Source: Actinomycetes bacterium
Lineage (GTDB): Bacteria > Actinomycetota > Thermoleophilia > Solirubrobacterales > Solirubrobacteraceae
Length of the DNA: 46,253 nucleotides
Reading direction: 5' to 3'
Assembly (NCBI GenBank): GCA_021851525.1
Contig: JAJZDA010000006.1
Span: 1-46,253 of the forward strand
In this document: positions 45,045 through 46,253 of the stretch, piece by piece
How positions within the stretch are numbered: position 1 is the first letter of the stretch
Layout: each line of letters opens with the position of its first letter
Translations under genes and position numbers: made by a program
Notes under the pieces: generated by a model
What the model was told of the DNA's origin: nothing
What the model saw: only the letters and a program-made list of their open reading frames with translations
Database searches by the model: none

Positions 45045-45413
45045 TCACAGCACCTCCGGCGCGAGCGAGACGATCTTCATGAAGTTGCGCTCACGCAGCT
45101 CACGCGCGACCGGTCCGAAGATGCGGGTGCCGCGGGGGTTGTTGTTGTTGTCGATGATCACCGCGGCGTTCTCGTCGAAGGCGATGTACGTGCCGTCCTC
45201 GCGGCCGTGCGCCTTCTTGGTGCGCACGACAACCGCCTTGACGACGTCGCCCTTCTTGACCGAGCCCTGGGGGCTGGCGGCCTTGACCGTGGCGGTGATG
45301 ATGTCGCCCACGCCCGCGTAGCGACGGCGGTGACCACCGTTGACGCGGATCACGAGGATCTCACGGGCGCCGGTGTTGTCGGCGACGCGCAGTCTGCTCT
45401 CGTTCTGAACCAT
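45045..45413 (-). CDS. rplN: Ribosomal protein L14
   Basis: This 122-aa protein matches L14 throughout: [100 protein letters not shown]. It overlaps rpsQ by one base (TAATG). Confidence 0.98.
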
Positions 45414-46090
45414 TACTTGGCCCTCTCCACAATCTCGACCAGGCGCCAGCGCTTGGTCCGTGACAGCGGCCGAGCCTCGCGCACCACGACGGTGTCGCCG
45501 ATGTTCGCGTCGTTGCTCTCGTCGTGCGCGTGCACCGTGGTGGAAGTGCGCACGACCTTGGAGTAGCGACGGTGGCGGCGGGCGACGTCGATGCGCACGG
45601 TGATCGTCTTGTCGGCCTTGTCTGAGACGACCACACCCTGGCGGGTCTTCTGGATGCCGGTCTCATGCGGCCGCGGCGGCGTGGCGGCACGCTCATGCGC
45701 GTTCTGCTTGTGCTTGGCGCGCGCCTGGGCGCGCTCGCGCCGACGGGCCGCTGCCTTCTCCGCGCGCGCCGCCTTGCGCTCGGCCTCGCGCTCCTCGATG
45801 GTCACCGGTCCGCGCTGCCCGACTTTGGCCGAACGCTTGGCCCTGAGCGCAAGCCTGCGCTCCTTGGGGGTCAGCTGTACGACCGGCTCCGCCGGTTGCG
45901 CCTGCGCCTGCGCTCCGCCCGGGTGCGCCTCTGAAGCCTGTGCCTCTTCCTCCGTGTCGGAGTCGGTACTGGCGTCGTCAGCGGCAGCCTCGGTCGAAGC
46001 CTGCGCAGAGTCCTCCGAGGCCTGGGCCTCGGCCGAGGCGTCCGCCGCGGCGGTCTCCTCGAGCTCTGTGTTTTCGACTTCTTCAGCCAT
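45413..46090 (-). CDS. rpsQ: Ribosomal protein S17 with ~140-residue N-terminal extension
   Basis: The C-terminal 81 residues (about 145-225) are a complete S17: [67 protein letters not shown]. Ahead of this lies an extra ~140-residue segment. Residues 1-57 contain about 19 Asp/Glu and no Lys/Arg (the first Lys is residue 76), in an Ala/Ser-rich low-complexity background. Residues 75-140 are strongly basic and probably helical ([20 protein letters not shown]). Bacterial S17 is normally about 85 aa. The ATG at 46090 lies directly after rpmC with a two-base gap, and no better internal start with a ribosome site is evident, so the extension is probably translated. Confidence 0.92.
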
Positions 46091-46092
46091 TA

Positions 46093-46253
46093 CTAACTCC
46101 GAATCTCAATCCCGCGCTCGCCGGCAACTGTCAGCGCGCGCGCAATCTCTCTTTTGGCACGACGGATGCCCGCCGTGTTCTCCAGCTCGCCGGTGGCGTG
46201 CTGGAAGCGCAGTCCGAGCAGATCCCGGCGCGCAGTCTTGATGTGCTCAACGA
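46093..46253 (-). CDS. rpmC: Ribosomal protein L29 (partial, 5' end outside window)
   Basis: The final 52 codons of L29 are present: EHIKTARRDLLGLRFQHATG, ELENTAGIRRAKREIARALT and a VAGERGIEIRS end. The start codon lies beyond the right edge. The LxxLRFQxATGELENTxxIRxxKREIAR pattern is diagnostic. It precedes rpsQ in the standard S10-spc gene order. Confidence 0.93.
   Translation of the reverse strand, partial: VEHIKTARRDLLGLRFQHATGELENTAGIRRAKREIARALTVAGERGIEIRS

Follow-up and report, generated by a model that had tools for sequence, protein, structure and literature searches.

The rpsQ locus and the layout of its product

The window, meaning the whole stretch of 46,253 nucleotides that was analyzed, is one contig (G000:C238) of a draft genome of 267 contigs and ends at position 46253 inside the gene for ribosomal protein uL29. 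Between uL29 and uL14 sits rpsQ, which encodes the only match to S17 (uS17) in this genome (Table 1). S17 binds the 5′ domain of 16S rRNA and is both abundant and highly conserved. The original prediction described this copy as unusually long, with a normal core behind an extension, and the open reading frame of 225 residues was confirmed on both counts: an N-terminal extension of 147 residues precedes a core in which residues 152 to 219 match the Pfam family Ribosomal_S17 (PF00366; E = 6.9e-26), and the protein passes the NCBIfam model TIGR03635 (uS17_bact) with 98.2 bits against a cut-off of 88.7.

The extension opens with an acidic leader. Residues 1 to 57, which the original prediction had singled out as an acidic start, hold 19 aspartates or glutamates (D/E) and no lysine or arginine (K/R), and the K/R-free stretch in fact runs on to residue 75, the first K/R being residue 76. 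A random arrangement of the extension's 22 K/R over its 147 residues would leave the first 75 K/R-free with a probability of 2.2e-8. The next segment had been described as basic and helical; it is indeed basic, with 22 K/R and 9 D/E in residues 71 to 145, but the single helix gave way to two predicted ones, at residues 75 to 90 and 98 to 131.

The S17 ATG at 46090 comes 2 bases (TA) after the uL29 stop codon (TAG, 46093 to 46095), and this start is well supported because it combines a GGAG with an ATG that directly follows that stop. Searches with the extension returned no Pfam domain above chance (best E = 0.32), nothing besides S17 in NCBIfam (with a low-complexity match at E = 0.19), and no match below E = 0.1 among PDB sequences.

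Table 1. Features of the rpsQ locus and the uS5 tail in the window
Feature	Positions	Strand	Basis
rpsQ, uS17, 225 residues plus stop	45413..46090	-	ORF; Pfam and NCBIfam matches
Acidic leader, residues 1-70, no K/R	45881..46090	-	Composition; disorder predicted
Basic module, predicted helix 1, residues 75-90	45821..45868	-	Predicted; conservation
Basic module, predicted helix 2, residues 98-131, arginine stripe R101/R105/R109/R116/R120/R124	45698..45799	-	Predicted; conservation
Linker to core, residues 132-147	45650..45697	-	Structure prediction; alignment
uS17 OB core, residues 148-225	45416..45649	-	Structure prediction; Pfam; NCBIfam
GGAG, Shine-Dalgarno-like, 6 bases before ATG	46097..46100	-	Sequence
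rpmC (uL29), 3′ part, cut by contig end	46093..46253	-	Stop 2 bases before S17 start
Acidic C-terminal tail of uS5, last 30 residues	41975..42064	-	Sequence

Spread of the extension across order, class, and phylum

A search of 151 genomes of the order Solirubrobacterales located S17 in 137. Of these 137 loci, 127 were fetched; 121 of them had a usable start, and the other 6 were left out. Across all loci analyzed, 10 of 232 were excluded, 8 because the stretch held no uL29 and 2 for want of a start. Families are labeled by number (f1, f2, and so on), and the usable order members comprise 59 proteins from f1, 17 from f2, 42 from f3, and 3 from f4. Absence of the extension from close relatives, a possibility raised alongside the original prediction, was not what emerged: every one of the 121 usable S17 proteins carries 52 to 241 residues before the core. 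The S17 extension is a lineage trait of the order and not an artefact. Its carriers include a named strain, Conexibacter arvalis DSM 23288 (Thermoleophilia, Solirubrobacterales; locus L041), whose S17 has 191 residues.

Elsewhere in the class, 23 S17 proteins were compared, and they fall into three kinds. Eight (f5, f6, f7, and f70) have 7 to 17 residues before the core; three (f69) have a lysine- and alanine-rich extension of 73 to 74 residues with no acidic residues; and 12 (f8 and f9) have an extension of 100 to 226 residues made of an acidic leader and another basic stretch, the leader passing the strict rule in 10 of the 12. The f69 proteins (L223 to L225) carry a histone H1-like basic extension of the KPAAKKAAAKK type in place of the helix module. 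Across a sample of the phylum, S17 was found in 292 of 296 genomes, and among the matches listed the frame lengths ran from 83 to 411, many of them near 85 to 130.

A conserved basic module with a predicted arginine stripe

A profile of the module (residues 75 to 131) matched 115 of the 121 order members at E < 1e-3, a count that is partly circular because 26 order members went into the profile, and matched none of the 23 other proteins of the class at that threshold. By family, the matches are 58 of 59 in f1, 12 of 17 in f2, 42 of 42 in f3, and 3 of 3 in f4; five of the six misses are f2 proteins from a group of eight that also lack the leader. When the 121 order proteins are aligned, R116 and R120 are invariant (121 of 121), and further positions of the module are strongly conserved (R105, 98%; R109, 97%; A113, 92%; R101, 88%; K112, 77%), as is K/R at position 124 (97%). 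The helix repeat is preceded by a T-P-E-E start, whose residues are kept in 54, 49, 81, and 75% of the proteins.

As read from the sequence, the spacing of these positions is compatible with a single face of a straight helix that repeats every 11 residues (101/112, 105/116, 109/120, and 113/124). Conservation along the module is periodic in the band from 90 to 110 degrees (permutation p = 0.008; at 100 degrees, 0.048), with a peak at 91 degrees. AlphaFold2, supplied with an alignment of 26 sequences (A1), predicted the two helices with block pLDDT values of 84 to 87 around the first and 94 to 98 over residues 101 to 130. The basic part also evolves under constraint, with a dN/dS of 0.30 in 23 independent close pairs. 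Residues 105 to 147 align with the tail of Mycobacterium tuberculosis S17 (a 135-residue chain) at low similarity, a weak local match; the module alone, searched against PDB sequences, retrieved no M. tuberculosis-type chain up to E = 1, and no solved counterpart of it was found by sequence.

Composition, constraint, and loss of the acidic leader

The leader is predicted to be disordered, mostly with AlphaFold2 pLDDT values below 50, and is not alignable. Within fixed bounds (residues 2 to 31 of the 121 order proteins), it holds 165 K/R against a base-shuffle mean of 783 (minimum of 200 shuffles, 712) and 1,259 D/E against a shuffle mean of 336 (maximum, 373); an alternative K/R count of 90 versus 953 is biased, its bounds having been set by charge. 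In the same set of 23 close pairs, dN/dS comes to 0.25 in the leader and to 0.09 in the core, the leader value being rough since its alignments are gapped. The leader is kept acidic and poor in K/R by selection at the protein level.

Presence of the leader was scored in 100 of the 121 order proteins by a strict rule and in 112 by a charge score (at least 15 residues). It is missing from 8 of the 17 f2 proteins, where no open frame has room for more than 83 residues ahead of the core and the basic extension stays, and it is therefore dispensable there. Its charge is loose (median, 19 negative; quartiles, 12 to 27), against a tight charge for the basic part (median, +13; quartiles, 12 to 14.25), and the mean frequency of the top residue rises from 0.30 in the leader to 0.50 in the module and 0.78 in the core. 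Within the order and in f8 and f9, every leader of at least 15 residues comes with a basic segment; outside the class, two proteins (L073 and L094) have acidic leaders (21 and 36 residues) but no basic part.

An acidic leader is uncommon among the neighbors of rpsQ. In the window and 16 operon stretches, 5 of 394 genes encode a first 50 residues with 12 or more D/E and no more than 2 K/R; they are three S17 and two L22, the gene calls being crude and the stretches rich in ribosomal genes. As a separate observation, 91 of 101 order genomes show a lower third-position GC in the leader than in the core; it is lowest in the first ten leader codons (0.64 versus 0.90), where glutamate is more often encoded by GAA.

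A proposed role in 30S assembly

Part of this picture has precedents, for extended actinobacterial uS17 and alanine- and glutamate-rich tails on ribosomal proteins are already known. Structural reports describe an N-terminal extension of about 13 residues on Mycobacterium smegmatis uS17 that reaches 16S helices h7 and h9 and an N-terminus of Cutibacterium acnes uS17 that lies on the major groove of h9 (PMC5876184, PMC6133939, PMC10085706). Like the proteins studied here, these are actinobacterial and have an N-terminal extension before a normal core; however, their extensions are much shorter, and neither an acidic leader nor an arginine-striped helix pair was found described for them. In the literature searched, a limited collection, no account turned up of a conserved pair of arginine-striped helices capped by acidic residues.

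For the leader, the closest parallels come from two unrelated proteins. In Hfq, an acidic C-terminal tip competes with RNA and displaces it from the protein's own arginine-rich patch (PMC5606850). A disordered acidic end and an arginine-rich patch thus share one polypeptide, as they do, with the disorder predicted, in S17 of the order. Hfq is nevertheless not homologous to S17, which finally sits fixed in a ribosome, and competition with RNA, shown for Hfq, would be a prediction for S17. Tsr2, the escortin of eS26, has an acidic flexible tail that keeps a basic ribosomal protein off RNA (PMC6131548), but it is a separate eukaryotic protein, and in S17 the client itself carries the acidic part.

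The best reading of these data, which we hold tentatively and at somewhat less than an even chance, is that the module may serve as an additional 16S rRNA anchor and the leader as a tethered RNA mimic that guards it. The arginine face of the module would dock on rRNA near h7/h9, on the lower body of the 30S subunit, a placement suggested because the shorter uS17 N-terminus reaches h7/h9 in solved actinobacterial ribosomes; once docked, the module would add glue to the 16S 5′ domain during assembly. Before docking, the leader would transiently cover the arginine stripe as a nucleic-acid mimic, keeping free S17 soluble and off wrong RNA, a guarding role proposed because of the Hfq and Tsr2 precedents. 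Cognate rRNA would then displace the leader by affinity, and the leader would remain on the 30S surface as a mobile acidic brush.

The original prediction had suggested an intramolecular shield, an idea that is supported in part and stays the preferred one. The acid-then-basic plan is conserved and constrained at the protein level, but the simplest form of a shield, neutralization of charge for charge, was not supported, as leader charge and basic-part charge show no correlation (Spearman rho, 0.01; n = 112) and eight of the 17 f2 proteins have a basic extension but no leader. A tethered mimic needs no equal charges and so fits the tight basic charge and the loose, uncorrelated leader charge, a pattern that also fits a tail tolerated without function.

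More speculatively, and in our estimate rather unlikely as a whole, S17 of this lineage could be a bacterial ribosomal protein with a built-in assembly chaperone: a covalent nucleic-acid-mimic leader would mask a lineage-specific, arginine-striped helix that binds rRNA until the 5′ domain of the 30S subunit takes the helix up, an arrangement kept across most of the order, and a start prone to intrinsic ribosome destabilization (IRD) could in addition tie S17 synthesis to ribosome health. On this view the two helices would form an element of the 30S subunit with no solved counterpart found by sequence. What is seen is that an addition longer than the S17 core has been kept across a whole order. 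Related genomes show S17 in several natural forms, some with leader and module together, some with just a basic extension, some with no extension at all, and some in which an acidic leader precedes a different basic stretch; these make the role of acidic disordered tails on ribosomal proteins directly testable and predict a new rRNA-binding element in a named strain.

Competing explanations

A plausible competitor, though on balance an unlikely one, holds that the module is functional and the leader is a tolerated low-complexity tail with no work of its own, in which alanine, glutamate, and proline repeats grow and shrink while selection only purges basic residues that compete for RNA. The freely varying length and sequence of the leader, its low top-residue frequency, its broad charge quartiles, and its loss from almost half of f2 would all be expected of such a tail, as would the lower third-position GC, from which a relaxed codon choice follows. 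Alanine- and glutamate-rich disordered tails are, moreover, common on bacterial ribosomal proteins; a survey lists low-complexity tails on S2, S16, L25, and eight others, S17 not among them, and places the vast majority at the C-terminus (PMC6821194, section 9), whereas the leader of the order lies at the N-terminus and leads into a basic module that is conserved. D/E enrichment far above that of shuffles, and not K/R loss alone, argues against a tail without work, and so do the retention of the leader in 100 or 112 of 121 proteins and the scarcity of acidic leaders among other genes of the same stretches.

Another view, which we consider improbable, is that the leader works on the finished ribosome and not on free S17, repelling ribosomes or nucleic acid or binding a factor. 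Its predicted disorder would suit a surface brush, and S5, L22, and S3 of these ribosomes likewise bear tails, acidic or basic; against this, no partner was identified, and the S3 and L22 tails vary independently of the S17 leader over 76 loci.

Less probable still is translational self-control, in which the D/E-rich start would provoke IRD and S17 output would report the state of ribosomes or magnesium. Chains rich in D/E at the N-terminus are reported to make translation abort, and among yeast proteins it is chiefly the abundant ones that avoid them (PMC9718836). At least four D/E occur in residues 2 to 11 of 104 of the 121 order S17 proteins (five in the S17 of the window), and in the window and 16 operons they mark 14 of 17 S17 proteins but 17 of 407 others. 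Yet 8 of those 17 others are L22, which follows the same acidic plan, the leader reaches 166 residues, far beyond the need of a sensor, and ribosomes of the order may simply tolerate D/E-rich starts.

That the extension is an annotation artefact, with true translation starting near residue 140, is scarcely credible, for no support was found beyond the draft state of the genome (267 contigs), and against it stand the GGAG and the ATG right after the uL29 stop, the starts of 76 of 121 relatives at -8, -4, -1, or +2 from that stop (a nearness partly built in because the picking rule takes starts from -16 to +70), an extension dN/dS of 0.25 to 0.30, and the presence of the extension in C. arvalis DSM 23288. 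A non-coding or frame-shifted reading was rejected on dN/dS, on D/E and K/R counts relative to shuffles, and on the start context.

16S rRNA, bS20, and bS16 compared with the module

Several further ideas were considered and rejected. Replacement of bS20 is not supported, for bS20 was found in 31 of 32 genomes, some of which have the extension and some of which lack it. A long bS16 tail like that of mycobacteria was also looked for; bS16 was found in 32 of 32 genomes, and its open frame in the genome of the window is 84 amino acids, so there is no long tail there, while some other genomes have longer frames.

Enlargement of 16S h9/h10 as the reason for the module was likewise set aside. The 16S gene was found in 20 of 48 genomes, and the h9/h10 segment was compared in 11 of the 20 loci, as 7 (including the 16S of the genome under study) could not be cut and 2 were over-long. 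Segment lengths do not track the module in these few sequences and show no enlargement with it: they are 73 to 74 nt in three without the extension, 73 nt in two with a basic extension only, 73 nt in one f8 member, and 74, 73, 59, 59, and 59 nt in five with the full extension. Measured from anchor to anchor, the genome's own 16S spans 329, against 327 to 331 in four without the extension.

Tails on other ribosomal proteins

The acidic tail of uS5 noted in the original prediction is present, but its tie to the S17 extension comes down to co-occurrence. Among the first 16 operons, two genomes hinted at a coupling of the acidic S17 leader to an RGG tail on S3, but this fails over 76 loci: for example, G043 and G076 have the S3 tail without the leader, and G015 and G068 have the leader without the tail.

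The S3 tails themselves are C-terminal, glycine-rich, low-complexity stretches of RG/RGG, seen in L232 (to 491 residues), L236, L247, and others, including the genome's own S3 (L249, on contig G000:C229); in 33 of 73 readable S3 proteins the tail counts 5 or more RG and is 35% or more glycine. The genome's own S3 runs off the contig end inside this tail, which may be the cause of the assembly break between G000:C229 and the window. An N-terminal extension on uL22, acidic and then basic, occurs in the same genome (L248, on G000:C229), and in many f1, f2, and f4 relatives, but in few from f3; in L232, uL22 contains a run of 11 aspartates. Long acidic C-terminal tails were also observed on uL5 in L242 and L244 (254 and 291 residues in all), and long basic ones on uL4 in L244 and L243.
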